Below are positions 27,975-58,983 of a stretch of 64,000 bases of DNA, piece by piece. The stretch's first letter is position 1. Each line of letters starts with the position of its first letter. Source of the DNA: Zygnema cylindricum (Eukaryota > Streptophyta > Zygnematophyceae > Zygnematales > Zygnemataceae); contig JBBHKE010000819.1 of assembly GCA_037447655.1 (NCBI GenBank), forward strand, positions 177,497-241,496, given 5' to 3'. Under the pieces are notes generated by a model. The model saw only the letters and a list, made by a program, of their open reading frames with translations, made no database searches and was not told the DNA's origin. The translations under genes and the position numbers were made by a program.

Positions 27975-28191
27975 ATACCCTATATAACATATATTGCTAT
28001 ACCCTATACAACATACATCCCTATATCCTTTATAACATACATTGCTTTACCTATCCAACATACATTGTTATACGACATACAACATACATCGCTATACCCA
28101 ATACAACAAACATCGCTATACCCTATACAACAAACATCGCTATACTTTGTATAGCATACATCGCTATACCCTATACAACATACATCGTTAT
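27975..28191 (+). repeat. Minisatellite block 3 (~24-bp unit)
   Basis: About nine degenerate units of the 13490 and 16026 type. With block 2 it would form one ~300-bp array if the copia composite were removed. Element C begins at its right edge. Confidence 0.78.
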
Positions 28192-29748: not shown

Positions 29749-30798
29749 TGTAGAAATTAATGGTTTATTAAAGTATTTTCTAGGTCTAAATAGAAATATG
29801 AAAGAAGCCGAGGCAGTCTACCTCTAACTTCTCTCTCCAACTCTCAAACTTATCGCAGTCACTGAGAATTTGGAGAGGAAGCTAGAGCCATGGCTACCTA
29901 TGCTATCCTGAGGTTTACGGAAAAAATATATTAGGGGGTTATTAAGTAAAATGATATGCGGCGGCCATAGGATTTGAACCTGGTACCTGCCGGACGGCAA
30001 GCTGCAGGTAGACGGTAACCTTTGCTGTTAAGTCTTGAAGTAGTGTTGAGTACCATATGGTTTGATAATTAATTAAACATTAATACGTAGGATAAATCAT
30101 TTAACTGTAATTGTTTACGAAATACATAGAACCGGTATTGTAAAAGTACGGATTGCCGTACAGATAAGAAATCAATACCGCACATTGATTTCATAAGCGA
30201 AACAAATACCGAGCATGTATTTACTACGGCTACGATCAAATTTGAATTTAATCGGACGGCCGGAATTAGCGCCGAGATCGCGGAGGAAAAATTCGGCGGT
30301 TTGTGGTCATCGCCACATCGGATGACACGTGGCAAAATTACATTGGATCGTGGTATATTCAGAGATTACGGCACCGAATCGGGATATGACATGTGTCGAC
30401 ATTAAGGCCATGTTGTACAATTTCCGTACATAAAGTACACCGGTGGCTATACTTTTGTGTACGGAACTGTAATCTGATTGGCTGCGTTCACCAGTAGATA
30501 GAGTATGTGAGAGAGATAGGACTTAGAAAAATTAGGAGATAGGATCCTCTCTCCCATAGAGCTTCTGTACAAAAGGTCAACTTTGACCCTCCATAACTTA
30601 CTGCTCATGGGAGCAAATTCAAAGATTCTTTTTGCTATAGACTCAGGGGAGTCTTGCCTTCACAGAGGTGCAAATGGTCAGAGTTTTTGTATGACAGGGT
30701 GGCAGTTGATCTTGCTGAAACACAAAGGGGTCAAGATTATCCTAGAGGCTTCTTAGAAGCTGTCCATTCTGAGGACTTATGGAGGTCCCAGAGTTTTA
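29749..30798 (+). repeat. 5' LTR of element D
   Basis: TGTAGAAATTAATGG...CAGAGTTTTA, 1050 bp like LTR1-3 and M. Inverted W-box pair at 30575-30588. The end reads TTTTA, as in the M 5' LTR, placing a stop in the LTR-initiated gag frame. Confidence 0.82.
29955..30045 (-). other. tRNA-like module in the D LTR (antisense to element)
   Basis: B box GGTTCAAATCC (minus, 29980-29970) fits the Pol III consensus well, with CCAGG before it. A-box-like AAGACTTAACAG near 30036-30025. Confidence 0.6.
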
Positions 30799-30802
30799 GG
30801 CT

Positions 30803-33681
30803 ATGGGCCCACCCTCTAGGGTACCAATCTTTAATGGAACTGGCTTCATACACTGGGAAAGTATGATGATAGGAGCTTTATGCGAAAAAAGGTTTTGGGG
30901 GATAGTGAGTGGATGATTAGGGCGTCCATCAAGTCTTGGAATCCCTCCAGGGTTTTGGAGGAAGCTGATTCACCAGGAAAACGATCCACCTTCAACGGAG
31001 GAGACAACGGAAGGAGAGGTGGTGGACAAAAGAAAGGAGAAGGAGACTACCACACCAATAGCAACGGGTTCGGCATTTATGTCACCTATTTCGAGGAACG
31101 AGGAGAATGATACTGAAACCTAAGACTTCAACAATATGGCGGCAAAGTACTTCATCCTACGCCATCTCACTCAAGGACTCGCATGTTCTCATTTGCAGGT
31201 AGAATGGGCATCCGATCTTTGGATGGCTCTCATAGAGATGTACCGAAGTGGTACGATTCAGCAACAACAGTTGGCTGATCAGAAAGTTAAGGAGTATGTA
31301 TACAAAAGGGGAAATATGTTGGATTTTTGCAATGAGCTTGCTACACTCTTCATGGAGCTAGAGAGTGCGGGAAAAGATTTTAGTGAAAAAGAAAAGGTTA
31401 ATTGTTTACTAATGAAGTTACCCGATGAGTTTGAGAACATAGTCAACCGTGTGCAGCACTTGCCGGACTCAAGGTGGATATGGAACTCAGTGGTAGGGAT
31501 GATTCTCGTTCGAGAGAATACAATTGAGATCCGAAGGGGAGGAAAGTGTGGCCAAGCCTTGGCAATAGCGACCGATTGGAGGAACAAGGATTCCCGAAAA
31601 CCAGTCGGAAACTATGGGGTTAGGGAGCAGAAAAAACAGACTGACGAGTTTGAACCAAGGGCTCCCAAAGGTTTATGTTTTTGTAAGAAACCAGGGCACT
31701 TTATGGCAGAGTGCACTAAGCTAACCGAGCTTTGGTTAAAGGAGGGGCAGACCGGTGGTACCCCGAGAGGAAAGAAAAAGGCCCTTGTCACAGAATTACT
31801 TGAGGCGGAATCCGAGGACGAGGACGATGAGCTCTTTTTGGATGAGGAGTTGGAGGCGAAAAATTAGGTCAAAATTCTACGAAGGCAGAAATGTGCTTAC
31901 GGCGGATTGAAAGGTGAAGCAGGTTGGATTACAGATTCAAGTGCCTCCATGCACATGTGTAAGGATAGGCACCTGTTCACTAAGATAAGAAAGATTCCCA
32001 CCGTAGAGATAGAGTACGGGGATGGGAGGATACTCACCACTACTCTTGTAGGATCGGTAGATCTGAAAGTGTTAGTAGAAAGAAAGACATCCATATTAAC
32101 ATTCTCCGATGTATTTTTTATTCCGGAGCTGAACAAAAACCTTATCTCTACATCTGTATTAGATGATAAGGGTTTTTTCACTAGCACTAGGGAAGGAGTC
32201 TTTACTGCTAGTTTTGAGGAGGATGTCTATTTCATTGCTGAGAAAGGTAGCCATAGGATGTTTAGGCTGATTTTAAGTAATGAAACGAAGAAACTTTATT
32301 ATGCTGGTGTTCATGATATTATGATGTGGTAAAAGAGGCTTGGGCATGTGAATCTAGATAAGTTAAGGGAGATGAAAAAGATGGGAGTGGTGGAAGGGAT
32401 TCAGTTTAGTGAGAGTGATGATATAAGTGATTGTAGTGGATGTGCTCAAGGTAAAGCACACAGATTACCTTTTCCTACAACAGCAACCTATATGGGAGAA
32501 AAAATTCTAGATCTAGTACACACAGATATTTGGGGACCGGCTAAAGTGCCCTCACCAGGGGGGGAGAGATTTATGATGACTATAACTGATGATTGGTCTC
32601 GGTATTCCTGGGTGTATTTTTTGAAAAATAAGTTAGAAGCTCAGGATTGTTTTAGACAATATAAAGTATGGAGCGAAAAACTCCATGAAACTCCAATGAA
32701 GAGAGTAAGGAGTGAGAATGGTGGAGGATATACTTTTAACAAGTTTGAGGATTTTCTTAGGGAAGATGGGGTCCAACACCAAAAGACAGTTCCAAAAAAT
32801 CCGGAACAGAATGGGGTAGGTGAAAGGTTAAATAGAACACTAAGTGATAGGGCTAGAAATATGTTGTCAGATAAAACGATAGGAAAAAGGTTTTGGGCAG
32901 AAGCAATGAACTGTGCTAATTACCTCAAAAATAGAGTTCTTACTTCAGCTATAAAAGATCAAACACCTTATGAGAGATGGATAGGCCGGAAACCAGACAT
33001 ATCTCACTTAAAAGTTTTCGGCAGTCAAGTATTCAGTCTAGATACAGATTGGTCTAATTGGAAGCTAGATCCTAAAGGATAACCAGGATACTTGTTAGGA
33101 TATGATGAGGATGTTAAATGATATAGAGTTTATGATCTAAAAATGGAAGATATAATCTTCGTAAAGCATCTAGTAGTCATGGATGAAGGAAAGTCTGTGG
33201 ACCCCTTCAAATATACAAAGTCAGTAAAAATCAGATTTGAGTCTAAAAATTCCGATGACTTTGAGCTTCCTAACTATCCAGGTTTTAGAGAAGATGACAT
33301 TCTTGCAGATACAAATCAGACCGAAAAAGACTCGGCTGTGGAAACTCCAGTGACAACTCTACCCGAAGCGAAAGACGTGGTGGAAATTGATTCGGAATCA
33401 ACGGATAGGGGAGAAGCTGAGATTGTTCGAAAGAATCCACGAGAACTATCTATTCCGGCCTCAGATTTTTAGGGGGGAAGGAGAAGTAGCAAAAGATTGC
33501 AAGAAAAATAGGTTTATAACAAGGTAACAAAACTATCTCATCAAGATGAACCTCAGACTTATGGAGAGGCGATGACTTGTCAAGAAAGAAACCGGTGGAA
33601 GACAGCCATCAATGAGGAGATGGCCTCAATTATGGCAGCCGATACTTGGGAGCTGGTGGATTGTCCACCTAACCGAAAACC
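30803..33681 (+). pseudogene. Element D Gag-Pol, broken and 3'-truncated
   Basis: Gag restarts at ATG 30803 (MGPPSRVPIFNGTGF) but stops after GIVSG (TGA). Later frames: 31136-31867 (Gag core; knuckle LCFCKKPGHFMAEC, one residue short and so lacking CX2C), 31907-32332 (protease, DSGA changed to DSSA, then GAG-pre-integrase ending in a stop at the first zinc His), 32348-33082 (integrase; HTDIWGP present, SDNGG changed to SENGG, so the second catalytic Asp is lost), 33143-33472 and on to PPNRK before the breakpoint. Many stops and catalytic changes show long inactivity. Confidence 0.8.
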
Positions 33682-35115
33682 TGAGTATGAAAAAAAATAA
33701 TGCTTACTATGTTGGTGTTCCTAAGTTGATGATTTGTCATTAACGACTAGTGCATGTGCATTTTGATATTTTGAGGGAAATGAAAAAGCTTCGGGTAGTA
33801 AAAGGCATTCAGTTTGGTGATAATGAAATGATGGATGATTGTAGTGGCTGTGTTCAAGGTAAGGCTCACAAACTTCCCTTTCCCAAAGCCGCCAATTATA
33901 GAGGTGAGAAAGTACTAGATCTGGTCTTCTCATATATCTGGGGACCTGCAAAAGTACCTTCGGTTGGAGGAAAAAGGTTTATGTTGATAATAACTGATGA
34001 TTGGTCTCGATAATCTTGAGTCTACTTCCTACAAACAAAGTCTGAAACATCAACCTACTTCAAAGAACATAAAGCTTGGAGTGAGATGTTGCATGGAACC
34101 CCAATTAAGAGAATAAAGAGTGATAATTGGGGGGAATATACCTCTAACCAGTTTGTGGAATACTTAAAAGATGAGGAAGTTTAGCACCAAAAAACCGTAC
34201 CATATAACAGGAAACAAAATGGGGTAGCTGAGAGGTTGATCGAACACTAGGAGATAGTACATATAGTATGTTGGCCGACAAGAAAAAAGGAAAGAGATTT
34301 TGGGCAGAAGCCATGAACACTGCCAACTACATTAACAATATTGTCCTTACCTCAGTTGTAAAGGGAATGACACCTTATGAGAGATGGGTTAGAAGGAAAC
34401 CAGATATCTCTCACATGTAAGTATTCGGTAGCCAAGTTTAGAGTCTTGACACGGATAGGAAAAAGTGGAAACTAGATGCTAAGGGAAATCTTGGATACTT
34501 TGTAGGATATGATGAGGATGTCAAGGGATATAGAATCTATGAGTTAGCAAAGAGAGATATCATTCTAGTCAAGCACCTAGTTGTGATGGATGAATGGAAG
34601 TCATTTGACCCCTTTAAATATACCAGGAAGATAAGGATCAGACATAAGTTTGAAAGTGAGGAGGACTTTGTCCTTCTCGAAAGGTACATGAGTGAAATAG
34701 AAATTGCAAATTCAGGGGAGATCCAAGACACATAAGATCCTGCAGAAACCTCTCACATTCCAATTGACTTCGAAGAGACATAAGAGCAGCACCGGAACCG
34801 GCTTCCATGGATAGGGGAGGCGATGAGACATTAAGGAGAAATCTAAGACTTCCCTCTATCCCAGTTTCGGATTTTGAGGGGAGGAGAAGGAGAAGCAAAC
34901 GGATTCACAAAAAACAAGCCGCTCGTAAGGAAACTAAGCTATCTCACCTAGATGAGCCTCAGTCATACTCGGAGGCAGTGAACAGTCTAAAGAAAGACAG
35001 ATGGATTAGAGCCATAAATGATGAGATGGCCTTTATCATGGAAGCAAATACTTAGGAGCTAGCCGACTGTCCTCCGGACAAAAAATCGATTAGCTGTAAA
35101 TGGGTGTTTAAACTA
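33682..35115 (+). pseudogene. Element C integrase region, decayed
   Basis: Resumes element C after the D breakpoint: GAG-pre-integrase and zinc region (CSGCVQGKAHKLPFP near 33840), core (SYIWGP in place of HTDIWGP; KSDNWGEYTSNQF), then C-terminal sequence up to GCKWVFKLKL at the insertion point of solo LTR E. At least six stops or frameshifts. Confidence 0.72.
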
Positions 35116-35120
35116 AAACT

Positions 35121-36215
35121 TGTTGAAATTTATGTATTTTCTATGTCTGTATTGGAAAAATAAATAGAGTGTTGGAAAAAGGTAATTAATAGTTCACTTC
35201 TATAATTTAGTTAGAATGTAAAGAGAGAGAAAGAGAGGACCAAAGGCAGGCCATGGCTGCTGCGTCATTTAGAAGGAGGTAGAATGAATTAGAAGGTATT
35301 TTACTAGTTTTAGTAAATTAGTGCATCTAGCCGGATTTGAACCAGGGTCTGCAGATTTCTAGGTAGACCTACTCCTTATCCATTAAGGCACCGATGAAAC
35401 GATACACATGATAAGTTTCACGCATATATATCTATTAATCTAAAGGACTAATTCGCAGCATATTAACAAAAACGCGCATTAATCAATTCACGCATGGAAG
35501 CGAATCGAAACCGTATAAATACAACTGATCGAACAGCCACTATTACAACCGCCACCCACAATAAGCTTTCGGCGGCCTTTGGGGATAGCCTCACGTGGTA
35601 CCACGTGGCGCCACATTATTTGATATTGGAGAAGATGGGAGGAGGAACCATGGCTTCCGATTTGGCAAATGTCACCTTGTAGACCATGTCGTACAATGGT
35701 CGTACAATAAGTACATCGCCCATCGTACCTTCTTGTAATATATAGTGGTTCTATTGGACTAGGGTTTAGTAGTAGGGAGTTGTGAGTAGGCAGACCAAGA
35801 CTTAGCGATATTTAGGTACCTCTCTCTAAAAGAGCTTGTAACTATAAAGGTCATTTTGACCAGCCATAACTTAATGCTCGGGTGAGCAAATTCAGTGATT
35901 TTTCTTGTTGCGGGCTCAGGGGAGTCCAAGCTACACAGAGGTGTATAGGTCAAAGTCTTTCCGTGCCAGGGTGGCACTTATTTAGTGGGAAAGTCAAAGT
36001 GGGGAATATTGTTCAAAACACATATTCAAGCTTTGCATTCTGTGTTGGAACTGAGCACACAGAAGGTCTTCTCTTCACAAGGGTGAAGGTGTATTGGGGT
36101 TTTGATTGTCAATAGATCATTCATTTGGGTTTATATCAACTTGGAGTTGGCACTATCTAGAATAGCTTCTTTTGGATCTGCGAATTCTGTGGGCAATGGA
36201 GCCCATAGAATTTCA
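35121..36215 (+). mobile_element. Solo LTR E, inserted in element C RT
   Basis: TGTTGAAATT...GAATTTCA, 1095 bp, flanked exactly by AAACT (35116-35120 and 36216-36220). It interrupts C pol between KLKL and NPDAIIERYKARL. Clean TG/CA ends and a 5-bp duplication show LTR-LTR recombination after a full insertion. The 3' ~225 bp recur at 38574-38797, and its end resembles LTR L. Confidence 0.9.
35322..35398 (-). other. tRNA-like module in solo LTR E (antisense), tRNA-Arg-like
   Basis: B box GGTTCAAATCC (minus, 35343-35333) with CCTGG before it. D-arm-like GTGCCTTAATGGATAAGG (minus, about 35391-35374) resembles the D arm of plant tRNA-Arg. The least degenerate D arm of the set. Confidence 0.62.
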
Positions 36216-36220
36216 AAACT

Positions 36221-37643
36221 GAACCCAGATGCCATCATTGAGAGATATAAGGCTCGATTGGTAGCATAGGGGTTAACCCAAAAGGAGCGGATTGACTATG
36301 AGGAGACTTTTGCTCCAGTTGTTCTGTTCCCATCAATAAGGATTCTCCTCAATTTGTCAGCAGGGGAAGACATGGAAATACACCAGATGAACATTAAGAC
36401 TGCTTTTCTTAATGGTGAGTTAGAGGAAGAAATTTTCATGAGGTTAATCGAGGGGTTCGTGGAGGAAGGAGAAGAGAAAAAAGTCGGCAGACTCATAAAA
36501 TCCTTATATGGACTAAAGCAGGTTCCGCGACAGTGGAATAAGAAACTAGATGAGTTTCTCACCAGTTTGGGATATATCCGGATAACTTTTGACCATTCTA
36601 TCTATATGTTTGAGGATGAGAGTGGTGTCATTTTTATTGCAATCTATGTGGATGATTTGCTTGTGCTCAATAAGTCTTTGGAAAAGACTAATAAGCTAAA
36701 GAAATATCTTAGATGCTGATTTTATATGAAGGATTTAGGTGAGGCAAGATACATTTTGGGGATCCAAATGGAGAGAGATAGGGGGAAAAGAATTATCAGA
36801 CTTACTCAAAAACAAACAATAGGCAATATTTTTGAGAAATTCCAAATGGAAAAGGCTTACACTTGTACCACTCCCATTGACTTGAAAAAAATAAGTGTTG
36901 GGAGTGAAGGAGGAGTAATGATCTTAGATGATCAGATGAGTCCAGAGGAAAGAGAGTTTATGAAGTCTATCCCTTATAGACAGGTCGTAGGAAGCTTGAT
37001 CTATTCTATATACTGTACCAGGCCAGACATAGCGGTAGCAATTGGAGTACTCAGTAGGAGTATTAATGATCCTAGGAAGAGAGACTAGGAGGCAGCCAAG
37101 AGAGTCATGAGTTATCTTGTGGGAACCAGAGAGTTATGGTTGCATTTCGGAGGTGAGCACACTAACATCACTACAAGGAGTGATACCAGTTATGGGGATG
37201 CACCTATGAGAAGATGCACTTCAGGGTATGTGTTGTATATGGGGGAAGGTGCTTGCTGTTGGAGCAGTAAGCAACAAAAGGTGGTTGCTCAGTCTACTAT
37301 AGAGGCTCAGTACATAGCCTCTTGTTCTGCTATGAAAGACTTGATGTGGGTCAAGTCCTTGTTGCAAGAACTAGGGTATACAGAGGAGGGAGTACATGAA
37401 TTTTTTTGTGATAATCAAGCTGCCATTGCAATTGCATCTAATGTAAAAAATCATTTTAAGGCTAAGCATATGGACATAAGTTTGAGTTTTGTGAGAGAAA
37501 GAGTTGAGAATAAGATTGTGAATCTTGTAAATAGATCTGATGAGGAAATCGTGGCTAATATGATGACAAAACCGATACCTTCTCCCAAGTTAAAATATTG
37601 GAGAGAAAAGTGTGGACTAAAATTGAAGTTAAAGTTACACTAG
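36221..37643 (+). pseudogene. Element C RT-RNase H region, decayed
   Basis: RT starts NPDAIIERYKARLVA, then MNIKTAFLNGELEEEIF, SLYGLKQVPRQWNKKL and IYVDDLLVL (active-site YVDD near 36642-36653). RNase H has TSYGDAPMRRCTSGY (36.6-37.6 kb frame; the first Asp block reads SDTSYGD), IEAQYIA in place of EAEY, and CDNQAAIAIA. Stops at 36287, 36718 and 37087. The C-terminus ends KLKLH just before the polypurine tract. Confidence 0.78.
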
Positions 37644-37656
37644 AAAATATGGGGAG

Positions 37657-38573
37657 TGTTAAAATTATTAGAATTAATAGGTATTTTCTAGGTCTGAATA
37701 CATTAGTAAAAAAAGGAAAAGTAAAGCGCAAGCAACCTGCCTCCACCACTTCCCTATAGCCCCCATGCTTGTTGTAGTCACTGAAGGATAGAGAGGGTGG
37801 TGAAGCAAGGCGTAGCCGTCAGCTCCTACCGGTGTGTTGTAGAAGTTTGTTACATTACATGGTGCAATATCTATTTAAACATTGAATAGAACATTAATCC
37901 GATTAACGGAACTATGAAAAGGAAACATAGAGACATATCATATTCAGTGCGTGCATCAAATCCGCCGCACGAAACAAATGAATCAGACATTTATTTCGAC
38001 GGCGTAAATTAAAAGTCGGTCTTCATCCGACAGCGCTAATCGCCGTCGAGGTCCGAGAATGGTCACTTTGGCGGTTTTCGGATGTGGCGTGACGTGGCGT
38101 GATCTAGCGATACGTGGCAGGATTGAATTGAGCAGCGGGGATTTCACGACATAAGGACGATTCAGACGGCGATAGGCGTCCACTCCATGGCCCTGTTGTA
38201 TAGAGGTCGTACATAAAGTAAATTGGCCGCTGTACTTTTTTGGTACTTCACAAACTCTTGATTGGAGCGTACTTCAGTAGATAGGGGTTGTGAGACGGGT
38301 TTGGGACTTGGGGGATTTGGGTAGATAGCACCTCTCCCCCAGAGAGCTTGTATAAAAGTTGGCACCTTTGCTGCCTCATATCTAATTGGCTGGTTGGCCA
38401 TTTTCAGTGATTCTTTTTGCTACGGACTCAAAGGAGTCTAGGCTGCACAGGGGTGCAGTCAAATTGTCAGTTTGCCTTCTTGGGCAGAAGTGGTTGTGGC
38501 TTGAAGTGGGTTATTTAAAAACTATATACATGCTTCCTCAATACTGTAGTCTAATGGAGGACACATAATTGCA
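37657..38573 (+). repeat. 3' LTR of element C
   Basis: TGTTAAAATTATTAG...ACATAATTGCA, following the polypurine tract. Shorter than the 5' LTR; the B-box part of the tRNA-like module is missing (only GTAGCCGTCAGCTCCTACCGG remains near 37810). Confidence 0.72.
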
Positions 38574-38797
38574 AGCCAAAGTGCGGGAATGTATCCAAAT
38601 ACTCATATTTTTCCTTTGCATTTTGTGGGGGAACTGAGCGCACACAAATTTTTCTTTCACATGGGTTAAGCTGTATTTGGGTTTTTACTGTCTAGGTGTT
38701 AGTTATTTGGGTTTGTATCAACTTGGAGTCAACAATATCTAGATACGTTTATTTGGATCTGTGATTTTTATGGGGGAATGGAGCCCATTGACTTTTA
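38574..38797 (+). repeat. E-type LTR 3' fragment
   Basis: Matches 35990-36215 of solo LTR E throughout (for example TTTGGGTTT, ATCAACTTGGAGT, TTTTGGATCTG-like blocks and GGAATGGAGCCCAT). The rest of that LTR is absent. Confidence 0.6.
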
Positions 38798-39370
38798 AAT
38801 TCCCATTCTGGTCTATACTATGAGCTGATGGTCCTATTCTCTACTTTCTCTTTAACAAAGCTCAACTTGTTTTCCATATGTTTTGCTTGAAAATGATGCG
38901 TAAGATTTGTTGCAATTGCAATTGTAGCCCGATTATCACATAATATTTTATGCACTCCATATTTCATATAACCAAGTTTTTGAAGCAATGATTTCACCCA
39001 CATTAATTCTTTCACATCAGAGTAAGATGACGTATACTCATCCTCCATAGTGGATTAAGCAACCACCTTTTGTTGCTTGCTACTCCAACAAAAAGCCTCA
39101 TTTCCAACATACAACACATACCCATATGTGCACCTCCTCATTAGAACATCCCTATAACTGACATTACTCCAAGTATTGATGTCTTTATAATCTCCTCCGT
39201 AATGTAACCATAAAACTCTAGTTCTTATAAAATACCTCATTACCCTCTTTGCTGCTTCCTAACCTCTCTTTGTAGGGTCATTGAAGCTCCTACTTAACAC
39301 ACCTGCAGTTGCCACTATATACAGCATGGTACAATTCATAGAATAAATGAAGCTACGGACAACTTCTTTG
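38798..39370 (-). pseudogene. Copia RNase H fragment
   Basis: Minus-strand remnant of the pol C-terminus: NCT-like block, GVLSRSF, LWLHYGGDYKDINTW, NVSYRDVLMRRCTYGYVLY, QQKVVA, DEYTSSYSDVKELMWVKSLL, CDNRATIAIA, FQAKHM, VENRTISS. Catalytic Asp of SDxSYGD and the Glu of EAEY context are altered. No LTR of its own is seen; LTR F is inserted at its upstream end. Confidence 0.68.
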
Positions 39371-40390
39371 TGTAGAAACTAAAGGTTTGTTTTTAGTATT
39401 TTATAGGTTTAAAATTGGAAAGATAAAGTTCAGAAAAGAAGCAGAGGCAGTGTGCTTGTAACTGCTCTGCTCTCTTCAACTCCCACACTTCTCGCAGTAA
39501 CTGAAGGTTATAGAGGGAGAGAGAGCCATGGATACCTATACTGTCCAGAAAGAGACAGGTAGTAGCTTTGTAAGATTACCAAAATAGAACTAGACGGACC
39601 CAAGATTTGATCTTGGTACCTGCCGGCCGTCAAGTCCCAAGTAGCCGGTAGCTTTGTCCTATTAGTCTAGGATCAGTGCTGAGGTATATAGAGTTTCATA
39701 AATATTTATAGATGTATACATAGATAATTTCATTTAACGGTACAAACAAATTTTTAGACATAGAGAGAGTTTTTGTATAGTATGGTGTACTGTACTTCAC
39801 CAAATGAATGCCACGCATTTGTTTCGACGACGTTACAAATACCATGCATATATTTGCGACGGCTAAAATAAAAAGCGGATCTTGATGAAACAACCGTGAT
39901 AGATGCTGAGATCACGGAATGGGCGTTTTGGCATTTTTACGTCGTCGCCACATCAAGTGACACGTAGCAAAATCACATTGGCTTGCGGCATATCCGGATA
40001 ATACGGGAACAAATCCAGATATGGCAGGCGTCAACATTTTGGCCATGCCATACGATGGCCGTACAAAAAGTACTTCGACACTTGTATTTTTAAGTACGAC
40101 ACAATAATCTTATTGGTAACGTATTGTAGTAGTACAGGATTAAGAGAGGAATTTATGACTTACAAAATTTGGTTGGTAGACCCCTCTCTCCCAGAGAGCT
40201 CCTATACAAAAGGTCAACTTTGACCCTACATAACTTACTACTCAGCGGAGCAAATTCTGCAACTCTTTTTACTATCAACTCAAAGAAGTCTTGTCTTCAC
40301 AAGGGTGAAGTTAGACAAACTTTTTATCTGTTAGGGTGGTAGTTATCAATTTTGAAACTCAAAGGGGTTAGGGTTATCTTAGGGGTTTCA
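39371..40390 (+). repeat. LTR F, 3' end truncated
   Basis: TGTAGAAACTAAAGG... with the usual LTR plan; similarity is lost just after TATCTTAGGGGTTTCAAG, about 60 bp short of the normal end. Inverted W-box pair at 40212-40225. Confidence 0.68.
39590..39680 (-). other. tRNA-like module in LTR F (antisense)
   Basis: T-arm CCAAG-ATCAAAT-CTTGG is a perfect 5-bp stem/7-nt loop. A box TAGACTAATAGG (minus, 39669-39658) matches TRGCNNARYNGG at 11 of 12 positions. Confidence 0.62.
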
Positions 40391-41419: not shown

Positions 41420-42457
41420 GGCAACTCTGAGACTTCCATAGGTCCTCAAAGTTGGCAGCTCACACAAAGCCTCTAGGATAACCGTGACCACGTTGTGTTT
41501 CAGCAAGAGTAACTACCACCCTGGGAGACAAGAACTCTTACCACCTTCACCTTTGTGAAGGCAAGACTCCCCTGAGTCGATAACAAAAAGAATCTTTGAA
41601 TTTGATCCCCTGAGCAGTAAGTTATGAAGGGTCAAGGTTGACCTTTAGTCCAGAAGCTCTCTAAGAGAGAGGGACCAATCTATCAAATTTTTCTAAGTTC
41701 TATCTTTCTCTAAAACACTATCTACTAAAGTACGGCACCAATCATAATATTGTGTCGTACATAAAGGTACATGTGCCAGTGTACTTTTTATACGGCCATT
41801 GTACGACAAGGCCAATAAGTTGACACATGTCACTTTTGGATTCTTTTTTGTTTTCCCCGGAGTTACCGTAATTGAATGTGATTGTGCCACGTGGCAATTG
41901 ATATGACGTCAACTTTAAACCGCCAAAAACCTATTTCTTCATTTCGGCATGCTTCGTGGGCGTCTGATTAAGCCGGATTACTATCGTGACCGTCATAAAT
42001 ACTTGCGCAATGTTTGTTTCGTCTTCGTAACAAGATGCGCGGTATGCGTTTTGGATTTTCCGAACGCCGTACATTACAAACTGTATCTATGTCTAAATAT
42101 CGCGTTAAATGAAAAAGCCTACGTGTTAACATTTAACTAGCTACGAAACCTTATATACTTTAACCTTGATCTTAGACTAATTGGCTTAGGTAACTAGTTA
42201 CCAGCTAACCTGACAGACAGCAGGTACCAGATTCAAATCCTGTGTCTGTCAAGATCTATTTTGGTAAAAATCTACCAACCTAATATTTGTCCCCGTGGAG
42301 ATAGCATAGGCGGCCATGGCTCTATCTCCCTCTCCAACTTTCAGTGGCTGCGATAAGTGTGAAAGCTGGAGAGAGGAGTTAGAGTGAGACTGCCTCTGCC
42401 TCTTTTTTGCATTTTACAAAACCTAGAAAATACTAAAAAAAACCTTTAATTTCTACA
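41420..42457 (-). repeat. LTR G (3' LTR of element G/H)
   Basis: Minus TGTAGAAATTAAAGG...CAGAGTTGCC. W-box palindrome GGTCAAGGTTGACC (41630-41643). Conserved hairpin CTCTCCAACTTTCA/TGAAAGCTGGAGAG (42330-42373). Confidence 0.75.
42165..42262 (+). other. tRNA-like module in LTR G (antisense to element)
   Basis: A box TAGACTAATTGG (42173-42184), B box GATTCAAATCC (42230-42240), outer stem TGACAGACA (42211-42219)/TGTCTGTCA (42243-42251), TTTT at 42259-42262. The outer-stem sequence differs from that in the other LTRs on both sides, that is, compensated. Confidence 0.68.
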
Positions 42458-43160: not shown

Positions 43161-43324
43161 CCTACCTCATCATCTAAGAGTATAATTATATTTTTAAAAT
43201 ACAACACAAATACTTTGACTGCTTTGTTTCGGTGGTACTTGATTAATTTGTTTTTTTTAAATGACCAACATTACAAACATTTTTTTTTTTGGAATACAAT
43301 ACAAATACTTTTAATACTTTATTT

Positions 43325-43423
43325 TGGTGATACTTTGATTACATCATCATTATCATCATCATCATCATCATCTTCATCATCATCATCATCATCATCATCA
43401 CCATCAACATCATCACCATCAAG

Positions 43424-43459
<36 letters not shown>

Positions 43460-43520
43460 GTCATCATCACCATCATGATGATCATGATCATCATCATCAT
43501 CAAGAGCATCATCATCATCA
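43325..43520 (+). repeat. (ATC)n trinucleotide microsatellite
   Basis: ATC/TCA repeat with interruptions (CACCATCAAC, GATGATCATG). The poly-Asp, poly-Ser and poly-Met frames it creates are artefacts. Confidence 0.92.
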
Positions 43521-43669
43521 TCAGCAATACAACCTTGATCATGCAATTCTATTTCCTCCATTGGACTACAAAATTCAAGAAGCCTCTAGATAGTTTTTAA
43601 CTCACCCACTTTCAGCCAAAACCACTCATGCCGAAGCAGGCAAACTGACAATCTGAATGCACCCCTGTG

Positions 43670-44694
43670 TGCAACTCTGAGACCTCTATAGGTCCTCAGA
43701 GTAAAAAACTCACACGAAGCCTCTACGATAACCCTGACCCCTTTGTGTTTCAGCAAGAATAACTTCCACCCTGGTAGACAAAAGCTCTGACCACCTTCTT
43801 CCTTGTGAAGTCAAGACTCCATTGAGTTTATAGCAAAAAGAATCTCTGAATTTGTTTTCCTGAGCAATAGGTTATGAAGGGCCAAAGTTGACCATTTGTA
43901 TAGAAAAGAGGGTCCAATCTATCAAATTTTTCTAAGTTTTCTCTCTCTCTAAAATTGTATCTACTCAAGTACGGCACTATTCATAATACTCTATCGTACA
44001 TAAAGGTACAGGTGCCGGTGTACTTTCTATACGGCTATTGTACGACATGGCCAACAAGTCGACACATGTCACTTTTGGATTCGTTTCTGTAATCCCCGCA
44101 GATGCCGTAATCCAATATGATTTTGCCACGTGGCAATTGATGTGACGTTGACCGCAAACCGCTGAAAACCTATTCCGCGATCTCGGCATGTTTCGTGGCC
44201 ATCTGATTAAGCCGGATTACAATCGTGGCCATCATAAATATTTGCGCAATATTTGTTTTGTATTTGCAACAAGATGCGCGGTATCTGTTTTGGACTTTCC
44301 ATACGCTGTACATTACAAACTACATCTATGTCTAAATAACCCGTTAAATGAAATAGCCTACGTGGTTTCTTTTAATAGCTACCAAACCATATATCCTCGA
44401 ATCTTGATCTTAGACTAATTGGCTAAGATAATCGGCTACCGGCTAACCTGACGGACGGTAGGTACCAGGTTCAAATCTTGGGTTCATCAAGATCTATTTT
44501 GGTAAAATTTACCAACCTAATGTTTGTCCCCGTCGGGATAGCATAGGCCGCCTTGACTCTATCTCCCTCTCCAACTTTCAGTGACTGCGACAAGTGTGGA
44601 AACTGGAGAGAGGAGTTAGAGTTAGACTACCTCTGTTACTTTTCTGCATTTTATAAAACCTAGAAAATACTAAAAATAACCTTTAATTTATACA
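43670..44694 (-). repeat. LTR H (5' LTR of element G/H)
   Basis: Minus TGTATAAATTAAAGG...CAGAGTTGCA. No primer-binding site follows it; it abuts a broken C-type LTR end instead, so the internal junction is rearranged. Confidence 0.72.
44401..44500 (+). other. tRNA-like module in LTR H (antisense to element)
   Basis: The best-formed copy: acceptor-like ATCTTGAT (about 44401)/ATCAAGAT (about 44486), D arm CTTAG-ACTAATTGG-CTAAG, A box TAGACTAATTGG (44411-44422), middle arm CTACCG/CGGTAG, T arm CCAGG-TTCAAAT-CTTGG with B box GGTTCAAATCT (44468-44478), TTTT at 44497-44500. Confidence 0.7.
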
Positions 44695-47013: not shown

Positions 47014-48074
47014 TGCAATTTTGTGTCCTCCATTGGACTACAGAATACAGGAAGCCTCTAGATAGTTTTTAACCAGCCCATTTTAAGCCACAGCCACTAC
47101 TGCCCAAGCAATCAAACTGACAATCTGAATGCACCCCTGTGCAGCCTAGACTCCTTTGAGTTCGTAGGAAAAAGAATCTCTGAAAACGCCCAACCAGGCG
47201 AGGCGATAAGTTATGAGGCAGTAAAAATGCCAAATTTTACAAATTCTCAAAGGGAGAGGTGACTACCTACCAAAATTTTCTAAGTCTTGATTCCCTCTAA
47301 TAACTTCTATCTACTGAAGTACGGACCAATTCCCTCTAATAACTTCTATCTACTGAAGTACGGACCAATCAGATTACTATACCGTACAAAAAAGTACTAC
47401 TGTCGGTGTACCTTTTGTACGGCCTATGTACGACAAGGCTATTAAGCGGACGCGTGTCTGCTTTTTACTCGTCCGTACATTCCTCGGAATTCATATGACC
47501 GAATGTCATCTCTCTACGTGGCTCCAGGTCATGCCATGTCACAAAACGCCAAGGTGACCACTCCGAGATTTCGGCGATGACGTGCGCCGTCGAATTTGTA
47601 ATGAGACGTAATCTTAGCCGTTATATTTACTTGCGCGACATTTGTTTCGCTCTCAAATGAATGCGATGTATTCATTCTGAAATGATGTCGTACTAAAACT
47701 GTGTCTATACACGCCGTATCCAGTTTTAGTTAAATGGATTTGTTCTTTCCTAAATGTATATATATCTATCACACGTTATAACATTTAGCATTGATCCTAG
47801 TCTAATAGGATAAAGCTGACCGCTATCGGCCAACATGACAAACCAGAGGTACCCGGATCAAATCCCGGGTCCCTGAGGACTATTTTTAGTACCTACTAAA
47901 AATAACTACCTGTTGCACTAAGGTAGCCATGGATCAACCACCCTCTCTATCCTTCAGTGACTACAACAAGTATGGGGGCTAAAGAGAGGAGGTGGAGGCA
48001 AGCTGTCTGTCTTTTTTCCTTTTTCTAACATACTTAAACCTAGAAAATACTATAGAAATCTATTAATTTCAACA
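47014..48074 (-). mobile_element. Solo LTR J (C type)
   Basis: Minus TGTTGAAATTAATAG...ACAAAATTGCA; no internal domain on either side and no matching flanks (TTCCA/AACAG). A 39-bp tandem duplication (TTCCCTCTAATAACTTCTAT..., about 47291-47368) lies in its promoter-proximal part. Confidence 0.7.
47790..47887 (+). other. tRNA-like module in LTR J (antisense)
   Basis: A box TAGTCTAATAGG (47798-47809; 11 of 12), B box GGATCAAATCC (47855-47865) in a CCCGG/CCGGG stem, TTTTT at 47883-47887. Confidence 0.65.
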
Positions 48075-48786: not shown

Positions 48787-49472
48787 TCAGATTTTCATAA
48801 AGGGAATGGCAATGCCCTTCACTACACTTTTTAGAATTAAGTGTTTAGCAACAGTGTCCTTATGGTGCCAATTTTCATACTCTGACCCTTTGGTCAGACT
48901 CCCTCCCACCACTGCTAGTGGTGTTGCTGGTAGTGTTGCTGTTGATATCGTCGTCAACAATGGAGTTTCTTGAGATGTGACTTCTCCCTTTTCTCCCTCC
49001 ATGACAATTTCCTCCCAATCCTCACTATCCTTATTAATTGTGGCAAATGTTTTGGTTGCTGCAGTTGTGCTCCAGTTGTGGAGGCGCCAGAAAAACGTGT
49101 TCCTCCTAGCCCCAGTGGTGGTGGGCATCGAAAATGTTCGGACACTATGCCCCATAGGTGCTTCTTAAAGAGAGCCCCTTCCATCATCATCTCCTAATAA
49201 AGATAGTCTCATCTATCAAATATGGGTACCCTAGAGGGTGGGCCCATAACCTGAAACTCTGTGGCCTCCATTGGCCCACAGAGTATACAGCCTATGTAAA
49301 GCCTCTAAGATAATATTTGTCCTTTCCACTTTTCCACTAAGTAAGTGCCACCCTTACACGCAAATATTTTGACCACCCTCACCCTTGTGAGGGCTCGACT
49401 TCCCTAAACAGAACGCAAAAATAATCACTGAATTTGCTCCTCTGAGCATTAAGTTATGCCTGGTCATAACTT
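48787..49472 (-). mobile_element. Element L: truncated copia element (E type)
   Basis: Minus strand: 3' ~220 bp of an LTR (about 49472-49252, ending ACTCTG-complement AGAGTTTCA), primer site (49251-49237, GGTTATGGGCCCACC, exact), then a short broken gag (MMMEGALFKKHLWGIVSEHF; frames 49190-48954 and 49155-48787). The 5' part of the LTR is replaced by element K gag, so L and K are fused by deletion. Confidence 0.65.
49237..49251 (-). other. Primer-binding site of element L
   Basis: GGTTATGGGCCCACC (minus), exact complement of the plant iMet anticodon arm, next to an LTR unlike those of A/M. Confidence 0.78.
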
Positions 49473-50099: not shown

Positions 50100-51096
50100 T
50101 TGACTACAGAATACAAGAAGCCTCTAGATAGTTTTAACTAGCCCACTTTAAGCCACAACCACTACTTCCCAAGCAATCAAACTAACAATTTGAAAGCATC
50201 CTTGTGTAGCCTGGACTCGTTTGAGTCCGTAGGAAAAAGAATCTCTGAAAACGCCCAACCAGGCGATAAGTTATGAGGCAGTAAAAATGCCAATTTGTAC
50301 AAACTCTCAAAGGGAAAAGTGACTAACTACCAAAATTTTCCAAGTCTTGATTCCCTCTTATAACTTCTATCTACTGTAGTACGGACCAATCAGATTACTA
50401 TACCGTACCAAAAAATACTACTGCCGGTGTACCTTTTGTACGTCCTATGTACGACAAGGCTATTAAGAGGACGCGTGTTGGCTTTTTACTCGTCCGTACA
50501 TTCCTCGGAATTCCTATGACCGAATGTCATCTCTCCACGTGGCTCTAGGTCATGCCACGTCAAAAAACGCCAAGTTTACCACTCCGAGATTTCGGCGATG
50601 ACGTGCGCCCTCGGATTTGTAATGAGACGTAATCTTAGCCGTTATATTTACTTGCGCGACATTTGTTTCGCTGTCAAATAAATGCGAGGTATTCATTCTG
50701 AAATGATGTCGTACTAAATTTGTGTCTATGCACGCCGTATCCAGTTTTAGTTAAATGGATTTGTTCCTTCCTAAATGTATATATATCTATCACACGCTAT
50801 AACATTTAGCATTGATCCTAGTCTAATAGGATAAAGCTGATCGCTATCGTCCAACTTGACTAACCGGAGGTACCGGGATCAAATCCCGCGTCCGTCAGGA
50901 CTATTTTTAGTAACGTACTAAAAATAATTACCTGTTGAACTAAGGTATCCATGGATCAACCACCCTCTATATCCTTCAGTGACTACAACAAGTATGGGGG
51001 CTAGAGAGAGGAGGTGGAGGCAGGTTGTCTGTCCTTTTTCCTTTTTTAAACATATTTAAGCCTAGAAAATACTATAGAAATCTATTAATTTCAACA
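49473..51096 (-). mobile_element. Element K: truncated copia element (C type)
   Basis: 5' LTR 50080-51096 (minus TGTTGAAATTAATAG...CAATTGCA), primer site with three mismatches (AGTTATGGACCAACC, 50079-50065), and Gag N-terminal half (to about 49464). Everything after the Gag core is deleted at the junction with element L. Confidence 0.7.
50810..50915 (+). other. tRNA-like module in LTR K (antisense to element)
   Basis: A box TAGTCTAATAGG (50819-50830), B box GGATCAAATCC (50876-50886), T-run (TTTTT) at about 50905. Confidence 0.62.
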
Positions 51097-53584: not shown

Positions 53585-54634
53585 TGTAGAAACTAATGGT
53601 TTTATTAGTATTTTCTAGGTCTGAAAAGAAATATAGAAGTCGGGGCAGTCTATCTCTAACTTCTCTCTCCAACTCTCAAACTTGTCGCAGTCACTGAGAA
53701 ATTGGAGAGGAAGCTAGAGCCATGGCTACCTTGGCTATCCTGAGGTTTACGGGAATTTTATGTTAGGGTTTATTTATTTAATTAAAAGGTATGTGCCGGC
53801 GGCAGGATTTGATCCATGTACCTACCGGCCGGCAGATATGAAATAGCCGGTAGCCTTAGCCGTTAAGTCTAGCAGTAGTATTACGTACTATGTAGTTTGA
53901 TATTTATTTAAATGGTTATGCGCGCGATAAACCATTTAACTGCAATGAATTACGGGATACATAGATCCAGTAAAATGTAAATGTACGACTTACAGTACGG
54001 ACACAAATCAGTACCGCGCATTTGTTTCGTAAATGAAACAAATACCGCGCATGTATTTATTACGGCTACGATTAAAGCCGACTTTAATCGGACGGCCGAG
54101 ATTAGCGCCGAGATCGCAGAGGAAGATTTCGGCGGTTTGTGGCCATCGCCACATCGGATGACACGTGGCGAAATTCCGTTGGATTGTGGAATCTCCGGAG
54201 ATTATGGCACCGAATCCGGATTTGACATGTGTCGACATTTTGGCCATGTCGTACACTGTCCGTACATAAAGTACACCGGCAGATGTACTTTTGCGTACGG
54301 AACTCAATTCTGATTGGTTTCGTACATCAGTAGATAGAGTTTGTGAGAGAGATAGGACTTAGAAAAATTAGAAGATAGGACCCTCTCTCCCAGAGAGCTT
54401 CTGTACAAAAGGTCAACTTTGACCCTCCATAACTCACTGCTCAGGGGAGCAAATTCACAGATTCTTTTTGCTATCGACTCAGGGAAGTCTTGCCTTCACA
54501 AGGGTGAAGTTGGTCAGAGTTTTTGTCTGCCAGGGTGGCAGTTATTTTTGCTTAAACACAAAGGGGTCAGGATTATCCTAGAGGCTTCTTGGAAGCTGTC
54601 CACTCTGAGGACTTATGGAGGTCTCAGAGTTTTA
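53585..54634 (+). repeat. 5' LTR of element M
   Basis: TGTAGAAAC...CAGAGTTTTA. Contains the CTCTCC hairpin (about 53663-53710), palindrome ATTTGTTTC/GAAACAAAT (54020-54043) and inverted W-box pair (54411-54424). Confidence 0.9.
53775..53872 (-). other. tRNA-like module in the M 5' LTR (antisense)
   Basis: B box GGATCAAATCC (minus, 53815-53805), A-box-like TAGACTTAACGG (minus, 53871-53860), followed on that strand by CTTTTAATT. Confidence 0.6.
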
Positions 54635-54649
54635 GGTTATGGGCCCACC
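54635..54649 (+). other. Primer-binding site of element M
   Basis: GGTTATGGGCCCACC, exact complement of the plant iMet anticodon arm, directly after the LTR. Confidence 0.82.
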
Positions 54650-57600
54650 CTCTAGTGTACCAATCTTTAATGGAACTGGCTTCATATATTGGGAAAGTAT
54701 GATGATAGGAGCTCTATGCGAAAAAAGGATTTGGGGGATAGTGAGTGGACGATTGGGGCGTCCATCAAGTCTTGGAATTCCTCCAGGGTTTGGAGGAAGC
54801 AGATTCACCAGGAAAGAGGATTCACCTTCAACGGAGGAAACAAAGGAAGGAGAGGTGGTGGACAAAGGAAAGGAGAAGGAGGCGACCACACCAATAGCAA
54901 CTGGTTTAGCATTCATGTCACCTATTCCGAGGAACGAGGAGAATGATACTGAAACCTCGGACTTCAACAATATGGCGGCAAAGCACTTCATCCTACGCCA
55001 TCTCACTCAAGGACTTGCATGTCCTCATTTGCAGGTAGAAAGGGCATCCGATCTTTGGATGGCTCTTATAGAGTTGTACCGAAGTGGTACGATTCAGCAA
55101 CAACAGTTGGCTGATCAGAAAGTTAAGGAGTATGTATACAAAGGGGGAAATATGTTGGATTTTTGCAATGAGCTTGCTACACTCTTCATGGAGCTACAGA
55201 GTGCGGGAAAAGATTTTAGTGAAAAAGAAAAGGTTAACTGTTTACTGATGAAATTACTTGATGAGTTCGTGAACATAGTTTACCGTGTGCAGGACTTGCC
55301 TGACTCAAGGTGGATATGGAACTCAGTGGTAGGGATGATTCTCGTTCAAGAGAATACAATTGAGATCCGAAGGGGAGGAAAGAGTGGCCAAGCCTTGGCA
55401 ACAGCGACTGATTGGAGGAACAGGGATTCCCGAAAACCGGTCGGAAACTATGGGGGTAGGGAGCAGAAAAACAGGCCGATGAGTTCGAACCAAGGGCTCC
55501 CAAAGGACTATGTCATTTTTGTAAGAAACCGGGGCACTATATGGCAGAGTGCACTAAGCTAACCGAGCTTCGGTTAAAGGAGGGGCAGACCGGTGGTACC
55601 CCGAGAGGAAAGAAAAAGGCCCTTGTCACACAGGTACTTGAGGCTGAATCCGAGGACGAGGACGATGAGCTCCTTTTGGATGAGGAGTTGGAGGCGAAAA
55701 ATGAGGTCGAAATTCCACGAAGGCAGAAATGTGCTTACGGTGGATTGAAAGGTGAAGCAGGCTGGATTGTAGATTTTGGTGCCTCCATGCACATGTGTAA
55801 GGATAGACACCTGTTCACTAAGATAAGAAAGATTCCCGTCGTAGAGATAGAGTATGGGGATGGGAGGATAGTCACCACTACTCTTGTAGGATCGGTAGAT
55901 CTAAAAGTGTTAGTAGAAGGAAAGACATCCATATTAACATTCTCCGATGTATTGTTTATTCCGGAGCTGAACAAAAATCTTATCTCTACATCAGTATTAG
56001 ATGATAAGGGTTTTTTTACTAGCACTAGGGAAGGAGTCTTTACTGCTAGTTTTGAGGATGATGTCTATTTCATTGCTGAGAAAGGTAGCCATGGGATGTT
56101 TAGGCTGATCTTAAGTAATGAAAAGAAGAAACTTTATTATGCTGGTGTTCATGATATTATGATGTGGCATAAGAGGCTTGGGCATGTGAATCTAGATAAG
56201 TTAAGAGAGATGAAAAAGATGGGAGTGGTGGAAGGGATTCAGTTCAGTGAGAGTGATGATATAAGTGATTGTAGTGGATGTGCTCAAGGTAAAGCACACA
56301 GATTACCCTTTCCTAAGTCAGCCACCTATAAGGGAGAAAAAATTCTAGATCTAGTACACACAGATATTTGGGGACTGGCTATATGCCCTCACCGGGGGGG
56401 AAGAGATTTATGATGACTATAACTGATGATTGGTCTCGGTATTCCCGGGTATATTTTTTGAAAAACAAGTCCGAAGCTGAGGATTGTTTTAGACAATATA
56501 AAGCATGGAGCGAAAAACTCCATGAAACTCCAATCAAGAGAGTAAGGAGTGACAATGGTGGAGAGTATACTTCTAACCAGTTTGAGGATTTTCTGAGGGA
56601 AGATGGGGTTCAACACCAAAAGACAGTTCCAGAAAATCCTGAATAGAATGGGGTAGCTGAGAGGTTAAATAGAACACTAAGTGATAGTGCTATAAGTATG
56701 TTGTCAGATAAAAGGATAGGGAAAAGGTTTTGGGCAGAAGCAATGAACTGTGCTAATTACCTCAAGAATAGAGTTCTTACTTCAGCTATAAATGATCAAA
56801 CACCTTATGAGAGATGGACAGGCCGGAAACCAGACATATCTCACTTAAAGGTTTTCGGCAGTCAAGTGTTCAGTCTAGATACTGATCGGTCCAATTGGAA
56901 GCTAGATCCTAAAAGAAAACCAGGATACTTATTAGGATATGATGAAAATGTTAAAGGATATAGAGTTTATGATCTAAAAAGGGAAGATATAATCTTAGTA
57001 AAGCATCTAGTAGTTGTGGATGAAGGAAAGTCTGTAGATCCCTTCAAATATACGAAGTCAGTAAAAATCAGATTTGAGTCAGAAAATTCCGATGACTTTG
57101 AGCTTCCTAACTATCCAGGTTTTAGAGAAGATGACATTCTTGCAGGAACAAATCAGACTGAAAAGGACTCGGCTGTGGAAACTCCAGTGACAACTCTACT
57201 CGAAGCGGAAGACGTGGTGGAAATTGATTCGGAATCAAGGGATGGGGAGAAGCCGAGTTTGTTCGAAAGAATCCACGAAAACCATCTATTCTGGCCTCAG
57301 ATTTTGAAGGGGGGAGGAGAAGTAGCAAAAGACTGCAAGAAAAATAGGTTAATAACAAGGTAACTAAACTATCTCATCAAGATGAACCTCAAACTTATGG
57401 AGAGGCGATGAATTGTCCAGAAAGAAATCGGTGGAAGACAGCCATTAATGAAGAGATGGCCTCAATTATGGCAGCCGATACTTGGGAGCTGGTGGATTGT
57501 CCACCTAACCGAAAACCAATCGGTTGTAAGTGGGTTTTCAAACTAAAACTGAACCCAGATAACACAATCGAGCGCTACAAGGCCAGATTAGTGGCAAAGG

Positions 57601-58970
57601 GATTTACACAAAAGGAAGGAATTGACTACGAGGAAACCTTTGCCCCGGTGGTCAGATTTCCCTCCGTCCGCATACTTCTCAGTTTAGCAGCGGCGGAAGA
57701 CATGGAAGTGCACCAGATGGACATCAAAACAACCTTTTTGCATGGAGAATTGGAAGAGGAGATCTTCATGCGACAACCCGAAGGGTTTGTGGAAGAAGGA
57801 GAGGAGAGTAAGGTATGCCGGCTGATTAAATCTCTTTATGGTTTGAAACAGGCGCCTCGACAGTGGAATAAGAAGCTTGATGAGTTTCTTACCGGTCTAG
57901 GATATATTCGGATCAGCTCAAATCACTCAATCTATGTTTTCAAAGATGAGGAAGGTTTTATATTTATTGCAATTTATGTTGATGATTTGCTTGTTTTAAG
58001 TAAATCAATGAAAAAAAATAATAAACTGAAAACCGATCTTAAGGGGAGATTTGAAATGAAGGATATGGGGGAAGCAAAATATATTTTGGGAATTCAAGTA
58101 GAGAGAGACCGAAAAAGGAAAATTATAAGATTGACTCAAAAGGAAGCAATAGGGAACATGCTTGAAAAATTTCAAATGGATAAAGCTAATAGTTGTACAA
58201 CTCCAATGGAGTTGAAGAAGGGAAGTGAGGGGAGTGAGGAAGAAGGAGTCATAGTCTTAGACTAGGAATTATCTCCTGATGAACAGAAGTTCATGCAGAC
58301 TATTCCTTACAGGCAAGTAGTGGGAAGTCTAATCTATTTTATGAATTGTACCCGGCCGGATTTAGCTGCAGCTGTAGGAGTGCTGAGTAGAAGTCTAAAT
58401 GCTCCCACTAAGAAGGATTGGGAGGCAGCTAAGAGAGTCCTTAGATACTTGGTAGGAACTAGAGATCTATGGTTGCATTTGGGTGGGGAGAATACTGACA
58501 TCACTACTTGGAGTGATGCCAGTTACGGTGATGCTCCGATGAGGAAATGTACTTCTGGATATGTATTATATGTGGGTGATGGGGTTTGCTGTTGGAGTAG
58601 CAAACAGCAAAAGGTTATTGCTCAGTCCACCATGGAGGCTGAGTATATGGCCTCTTGCTCTGCTGTAAAAGAATTGATGTGGGTCAAGTCTTTGCTTGGT
58701 GAGCTTGGTCACCTTAAGAGTGGTGTGCATAAAATATTTTGTGATAATCAGGCAGCAATCGCTATTTCTGCCAATCCTAAACACCATTTTAAAGCCAAAC
58801 ACATGGACATCAGACTCAGCTTTGTTAGAGAGAAAGTAGAAAACAAAATAATCAGTTTAGAGTACAGACCAGATAGTGAGATGGTAGCAGATATGATGAC
58901 CAAACCTGTGCCTTCCCCTAAGCTAATTTTTTGCAGGGAGAAGTGTGGTCTGAAATTAAAGATTTACTAG
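54639..58970 (+). pseudogene. Element M Gag-Pol, broken
   Basis: Gag reads from ATG 54639 (MGPPSSVPIFNGTGFIYWES), because the LTR ATG (54614) meets TAG after five more codons (MEVSEF). Frames: 54639-55562 (Gag core, then frame change in an A-run near 55470), 55541-56413 (knuckle C-terminus; protease DSGA changed to DFGA; zinc HHCC kept), 56368-56646 (integrase core SDNGGEYTSNQF, then CAG to TAG), 56698-57363, 57408-58265 (RT, GCKWVFK intact, YVDD at about 57979-57990, ends at GAG to TAG) and 58293-58970 (RNase H, CDNQAAIAIS, to the natural C-terminus). It is the best reference here for the ancestral residues mutated in the tandem copies. Confidence 0.86.
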
Positions 58971-58983
58971 AAAATAAGGGGAG

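Follow-up and report, generated by a model that had tools for sequence, protein, structure and literature searches.

A probable tRNA-derived Pol III promoter lying antisense in the LTRs of copia elements of Zygnema cylindricum

The LTRs of a large copia lineage in the genome of Zygnema cylindricum contained in U3, on the strand opposite to the element, a module that is probably a tRNA-derived (tRNA-Arg-like) type 2 Pol III promoter maintained by selection as a promoter. A and B boxes lay on the same strand at a suitable spacing, and a terminator-like run of at least four T (T4) followed shortly after the B box. We observed the anatomy of the module, its strand, its set of boxes, its terminator-like run, its spacing and its conservation, and the tRNA ancestry of one of three LTR clades (clade II).

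The window (the whole 64,000-nt stretch of DNA that was analysed) was repeat-rich eukaryotic DNA in which copia-type domains (RVT_2, rve, gag-pre-integrase and copia gag) were detected, and the genome searched comprised 352.8 Mb in 2,689 contigs. An HSP70-family exon of this genome was 65-81% identical to the 120 relatives listed out of 954, and those among them with an organism name were land plants, in agreement with a streptophyte host. Fourteen LTR copies (a-n, mostly ~1 kb each) were aligned; two further LTR fragments (35659-35983 and 49249-49466), outside this alignment, matched other parts of the LTR. The elements and LTRs needed for what follows were:

43674-44694, minus strand: LTR g of a minus-strand copia element, carrying the module antisense to the element
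37657-38573, plus strand (module strand minus): LTR m, with the A-box side retained and the B box and T run deleted
53585-60033, plus strand: recent copia insertion with LTRs, target duplication and gag and RVT_2 domains
54635-54651, plus strand: primer-binding site GGTTATGGGCCCACCCT of the 53585-60033 element

The element was ~6.4 kb long with an LTR of ~1,050 bp, and the family had gag, integrase and RVT_2 domains. The LTRs of the 53585-60033 element were identical in 1040 of 1047 aligned columns and were flanked by a 5-bp target duplication (ACATA); its 5′ LTR (copy j) terminated in TTTTA, as against TTACA, and its coding region was broken across several frames. An integrase core preceding RVT_2, LTR ends of the TG..CA type, the 5-bp duplication and a primer-binding site identified the family as Ty1/copia. 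The primer-binding site region, GGTTATGGGCCCACC, was found directly inside the LTR, and the site appears complementary to the anticodon arm of initiator tRNA-Met. The primer-site pattern occurred 3,292 times in the genome and three times in the reversed control. The first ATG of the gag frame (54639) fell within the primer-binding site itself (GGTTATGGGCCC, in the region 54635-54660). The RT protein had no confirmed relative when viral_contigs was scanned with it.

The window also contained a 24-bp minisatellite (unit ~TATACCCTATACAACATACATCGC, by eye) at 13482-13641, 15994-16139 and 27951-28215, two of these arrays lying at copia LTR boundaries, and a long CAT trinucleotide array (43300-43578) within the element bounded by LTRs f and g. 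A separate LTR pair (5138-10515, 89% identical) flanked a 1095-codon frame (6708-9995) that had no Pfam match and whose end resembled by eye the activation segment of a protein kinase; this frame is possibly a captured host fragment. A long near-perfect hairpin at 1726-1809, which had weak scores against several miRNA precursor families, is perhaps a MITE-like inverted repeat.

The module was present in 13 of the 14 aligned LTR copies (a-l and n; copy m was the exception), so that its recurrence in LTRs, claimed in a preliminary description of the window, was confirmed. Read on the strand opposite to the element, it began with a TATA-like or AT-rich 8-mer, continued with an A box, set in a D-arm-like hairpin, and a B box, and ended in a T4 or T5 run. 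The 8-mer lay ~51 nt upstream of the box-A G18, T4 began 13-18 nt beyond the B box, and the stretch that starts at the inferred tRNA position 1 and closes with the T run measured 95-97 nt (85 in copy n). The copy first noticed, at 44401-44500 (copy g), contained each of these parts on the plus strand and, because its element runs on the minus strand, was antisense as described:

44370-44377, plus strand: TTTTAATA, the AT-rich 8-mer that occupies the conserved TATA place in copy g, 51 nt upstream of the box-A G18 (~-33 of tRNA position 1)
44411-44424, plus strand: A box and D arm of copy g, TAGACTAATTGGCT
44468-44478, plus strand: B box of copy g, GGTTCAAATCT
44497-44500, plus strand: T4 run of copy g, Pol III terminator-like
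42132-42262, plus strand: module copy f, running from the TATA place to T4 and carried by the other LTR of g's element
16841-16969, plus strand: module copy a
22244-22372, plus strand: module copy b, placed by a 5403-nt offset to copy a
27647-27775, plus strand: module copy c
28399-28517, minus strand: module copy n, clade III, with a canonical-looking B box GGTTCGAGTCT
29948-30077, minus strand: module copy d
39581-39710, minus strand: module copy e
47757-47887, plus strand: module copy i
50778-50908, plus strand: module copy h
53784-53912, minus strand: module copy j, in the 5′ LTR of the recent element 53585-60033
59183-59311, minus strand: module copy k, in the 3′ LTR of the same element
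61721-61849, minus strand: module copy l, with the strongest hairpin (z -5.25) and a poor TATA at the expected place

The 8-mer TTTTAATA of copy g was too diverged to fit the TATA pattern. In many copies the TATA-like element was almost palindromic (e.g. TTTAAATA and TATATATA), and many clade I copies departed from the canonical B box, with A substituted for T54 (GGATCAAATC).

One clade II LTR (L122, found by its primer site) aligned with a host tRNA-Arg(TCG) gene (L144) over 58 columns with a 3-nt insertion (z 7.9), a result that none of 100 shuffles equalled, and the collinear match ran from near the tRNA 5′ end via the D arm and the anticodon arm into the T loop. When copies were compared with host tRNAs, using hand-made lists (17, 26 and 14 copies of clades I, II and III; the 17 were a subset of clade I that included some small clusters), the median z was 4.4 in clade II, 2.8 in clade III and 2.7 in clade I, and the module strand scored better than its reverse in 23 of 26, 14 of 14 and just 10 of 17 copies, respectively. 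The best tRNA for clade II copies was not always that for Arg, those for Asn and Cys being found too. These comparisons argue strongly for tRNA ancestry of clade II, and the common position, strand and box order suggest the same origin for clades I and III.

A functional tRNA gene was rejected, since neither ARAGORN nor Rfam found a tRNA in the window and the acceptor stem and cloverleaf had been lost. ARAGORN likewise found none in 28 of the 29 loci scanned, its sole match being off the B-box site in L028; that match (1126-1199) was a tRNA with the suppressor-type anticodon CTA, in a locus without a match to the window LTRs. A first look for tRNAs in the genome gave 24,620 candidates, of which 63 were scored. 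Among the loci scanned, the tRNA covariance models matched a single one, L127, with 21.2 bits against a cut-off of 29 bits and with the D arm unaligned. The tRNA-like character first ascribed to the module was thus borne out as derivation, through the L122 match, and not as a fit to these models.

To sample LTRs without bias towards the module, they were chosen by the primer-binding site alone, taking 82 of the first 83 places listed (one ran off its contig); three of the 82 lay in L029, L031 and L042. With a matrix built from B boxes of 20 host tRNA genes (13 distinct sequences), a score of at least 10 was reached on 38 of the 82 antisense strands and on 3 of the 82 sense strands, as against 3.4% of shuffles. 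The antisense strand was ahead at all six thresholds, from 58 versus 22 (score 7) to 18 versus 0 (score 12). A two-box pattern, which had been fitted to the data, matched 46 of 82 antisense strands and one of 82 sense strands. A profile of the window copies matched 60 of these LTRs in antisense at E<1e-3 and five on the opposite strand, and 17 gave no match at that level. By eye, nine of the 17 still held a diverged module, three others (L050, L077 and L081) retained part of one, and no module was seen in the LTR pieces inspected of L069, L082, L096, L104 and L115. The modules of L075 and L076 were inverted and apparently came from a neighbouring LTR.

A second sample was set by fixed coordinates (positions 30001-40000 of 20 contigs, 200 kb in all) and searched with profiles of the three clades. 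It yielded 16 modules against none in the reversed-sequence control; three of the 16 (in L029, L031 and L042) were also among the sequences from which the profiles were built, and 19 of the 20 contigs had previously been listed for a B-box match, the 20th being the window's own. All 16 were antisense and within 700 bp of an LTR match, none being found away from one in the 200 kb, and 15 had a T4 run. The module belongs, as had been proposed, to LTRs of full-length copia elements of strongly diverged subfamilies, and three clades shared the promoter signals. Locus L040 (7934-8184) held two tandem module matches, one of clade II and one of clade I type, with a separate T run for each. In L005 (1140-2413) a clade II LTR had inserted into the module of an n-type LTR, 14 nt in from where the B box begins; when the module was considered as a landing site for new insertions, this was the sole convincing interruption among the sequences examined.

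For the conservation analysis 97 rows were collected, comprising the 13 window copies, 64 primer-site-anchored loci and 20 B-box-anchored loci. At 80% identity they fell into 16 clusters, three of them large (44, 22 and 14 rows); because the copies are related in this way, the row counts are not independent. Eight of 28 B-box-anchored loci had been dropped, being judged by eye to be something other than LTR modules (L002, L009, L012, L017, L021, L022, L023 and L028), and L018, which was retained, is probably not a module. The 64 primer-site-anchored rows came from the 82 LTRs chosen by that site, of which five more (L078, L086, L088, L090 and L092) with a visible module were left out as their B box was unlisted. 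Selection of 20 of the 97 rows by the B box inflates the conservation of this box in clade II.

A T4 run was found 8-30 nt beyond the B box in 93 of the 97 rows (absent from L064, L110, L113 and L018). By source, it was present in all 13 window copies, in 61 of the 64 rows anchored by the primer site and in 19 of the 20 anchored by the B box. Its start lay 13-18 nt beyond the B box in 45 of the 46 rows of the two-box subset, and any other 27-nt window tested contained T4 in at most 5 of 31 copies (16%). Among 20 host tRNA genes, T4 was located within 25 nt of the 3′ end in ten, and the region from -40 to -21 was 86-90% A+T.

In 37 of the 49 rows with enough upstream sequence, the best TATA 8-mer lay between -52 and -49 relative to G18, as against ~4% expected with equally likely starts, a chance figure that ignores A+T-richness and ties. 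The median TATA-to-A distance was 51 in all three clades (64 rows), measured from the TATA nearest -51, a biased choice that did not enter the best-8-mer analysis or the TATA pattern analysis; no TATA-like match near -51 was found in 33 of the 97 rows. Other medians for clades I, II and III were 46, 38 and 39 for the A-to-B spacing, and 28, 23 and 28 for GTTAA-to-TATA; the distance from T4 to CAGTGACT was 91, 155 (one row) and 85. A fixed TATA-to-A distance with a variable A-to-B spacing is what the established behaviour of TFIIIC and TFIIIB predicts. The boxes were better conserved than the intervening sequence in each of the three clade alignments (circular-shift p 0.035, 0.013 and 0.024); the automatic A-box anchor of copy b was wrong in this analysis.

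These data bear on the possibility that the module is a fossil, left by a SINE or tRNA that inserted into an ancestral LTR and has simply been carried along ever since, with no function. Such a fossil would account for the tRNA ancestry, the expected remnant of a landed SINE or tRNA gene, and for the disappearance of the acceptor stem and cloverleaf, yet it was the RNA part that had been lost and the promoter part that had been retained: T4 (in 93 of 97 rows), the B box, the A box and the TATA place were kept in three clades and the sequence between them was not, and the module was still present in the recent insertion with copies j and k. A dead fossil is the less likely reading because the signals persist while the intervening sequence turns over, and we regard it as unlikely.

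A feature of U3 serving Pol II, whose sense-read enhancer or core promoter sites resemble a tRNA promoter by coincidence, is quite unlikely. The near-palindromic TATA-like element was located where a sense core promoter is plausible, further blocks of the LTR were conserved as well, and the TATA place could serve sense Pol II alone; coincidence is a poor account, however, of a match to host tRNA B boxes found mainly on one strand, of an A box-B box-T4 order that is that of a Pol III gene, and of a copy (L122) that aligned with a tRNA over 58 columns.

The folding of the module differed among the clades. The T-arm stems quoted at first as covarying were all present (CCAGG/CCTGG in copy l, CCAAG/CTTGG in copy e and CCCGG/CCGGG in copy i); the selection on structure that they had suggested was mostly not supported by RNAalifold and pair counts per clade, which gave no general pattern and no covariation in clade II. 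In clade I (34 rows) the outer stem was 79% and the T stem 72% paired (73% of cells overall), and the covariation score exceeded all 500 shuffles, which ignore relatedness. Six pairs had changed on both sides, a number reached by 438 of 500 shuffles, and the cells concerned were mostly at column pairs 56/92 and 60/88, fitting one inherited swap. In clade II (19 rows) the T stem was 57% paired and the covariation score was reached by 479 of 500 shuffles. In clade III (11 rows) pairing was 91% and the score was reached by nine of 500 shuffles, in a hairpin that was not tRNA-like and that connected the D arm with the region preceding the T arm. RNAalifold gave a consensus of -16.2 kcal/mol for clade III and no consensus fold for clade II, and per-clade RNAalifold and pair counts revealed no fold common to the three clades. 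Of the single copies, g gave a four-armed fold when folded alone (z -1.71), and l gave a long hairpin that was nearly equalled by its sense strand (z -4.34).

A selected structured antisense RNA, e.g. a regulator pairing with U3 of the element RNA, is very unlikely, since against the copies that folded better than shuffles (l, f and i; z -5.25, -3.13 and -2.83), the paired hairpin of clade III and the covariation score of clade I there stand the lack of a cross-clade structure or of any in clade II, clades that fold differently, a clade I consensus of just -1.77 kcal/mol and the weak folding of four other copies (g, d, n and h; z -1.4 to -1.9). We conclude that the constraint common to the clades was on the promoter signals (TATA-like element, A box, B box and T4) and on the TATA-to-A distance, and not on pairing, because the clades fold differently and clade II was at or below the level of shuffles.

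Taken as a Pol III promoter, the module would work as follows. TFIIIC would engage boxes A and B, TFIIIB would be positioned on the TATA-like element at ~-33, and Pol III would initiate near the former tRNA 5′ end, head away from the element genes and end at T4, giving an RNA of about 85-97 nt. Because the TATA-like box is nearly palindromic in many copies, it could serve the sense Pol II promoter too, and the two promoters would then form a compact divergent Pol II/Pol III unit. Use by TFIIIC, TFIIIB and Pol III, transcription and a benefit to the element are what the sequence suggests. The benefit might come from occupancy or from the act of transcription, which could keep U3 open beside the Pol II core promoter or hold silencing back; this is favoured over a structured RNA product because what lies between the boxes is free to vary in both sequence and folding. 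The use proposed here resembles that of extra-TFIIIC sites and tDNA insulators, at which B-box sites act by occupancy and not via an RNA; these usually lack the full set of TATA, A box, B box and terminator and are not known as fixed components of retroelement LTRs.

Among known systems the module is, on the best reading, nearest to the Helenus and Cassandra TRIMs. tRNA-derived SINEs likewise retain a tRNA head with A and B boxes as the tRNA fold decays, whereas the module here is a segment of an LTR and was moved by LTR-type integration. In the parts of Kojima (2024, PMC10886601) that deal with them, Helenus TRIMs have tRNA-derived sequence with A and B boxes within their LTRs, with tRNA function mostly lost, a 5-bp target duplication in plant and fungal families, a link to Copia, and anticodon-loop primer sites in fungi. 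The tRNA-derived LTR sequence was shared by our elements, strongly in clade II and more weakly in clades I and III; the short non-autonomous form was not. Helenus elements are non-autonomous and 311-1263 bp in total, with a promoter expected to transcribe the element (PMC10886601), whereas here ~1-kb LTRs on gag-pol elements of ~6.4 kb carry it in antisense. The same account names Selaginella moellendorffii as the sole plant with Helenus, argues that any autonomous partner has to rely on Pol II and is unlikely to have a long stretch of LTR in common with Helenus, and remarks on 'not a few' Repbase LTRs with a likeness to a portion of a tRNA, following up the TRIMs alone; the word 'antisense' is absent from its main text (PMC10886601). 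Cassandra TRIMs, as described there, also conserve the Pol III promoter of a small-RNA gene in their LTRs over long times, but theirs is derived from 5S rRNA, in a short element that is itself transcribed from this promoter (PMC10886601). A Cassandra-type segment was rejected for the module, which matched tRNA, Rfam finding no 5S match in the window. A mosquito gypsy element, in the part of its report concerned, has tandem tRNA-like copies at the primer-site boundary, a different arrangement (PMC3286476).

In the open-access literature searched, Pol III promoters in LTRs were those of Cassandra, Helenus and Ajax, all short non-autonomous elements, and among the papers listed there none was seen that reported a Pol III unit lying antisense in the LTRs of full-length copia elements. 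The present case differs from them in host element and orientation, and probably in use. The LTR modules may confuse tRNA annotation in this genome. The known elements with a Pol III promoter in the LTR are, in that literature, short TRIMs that use it, or are expected to use it, for themselves; a conserved antisense Pol III unit in gag-pol elements, if true, would mean a different use, with one LTR for two polymerases. We suggest tentatively, as a reading somewhat short of probable, that, in one streptophyte genome, a very abundant lineage of full-length copia elements retains an antisense Pol III promoter of tRNA-Arg origin in most of its LTRs, head-to-head and sharing a TATA with the sense Pol II promoter, and that Pol III occupancy of U3 is part of its life cycle, with the LTR kept open, silencing blocked or old copies marked as landing sites. 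If this is true, Pol III would become part of transposon regulation in the plant lineage.
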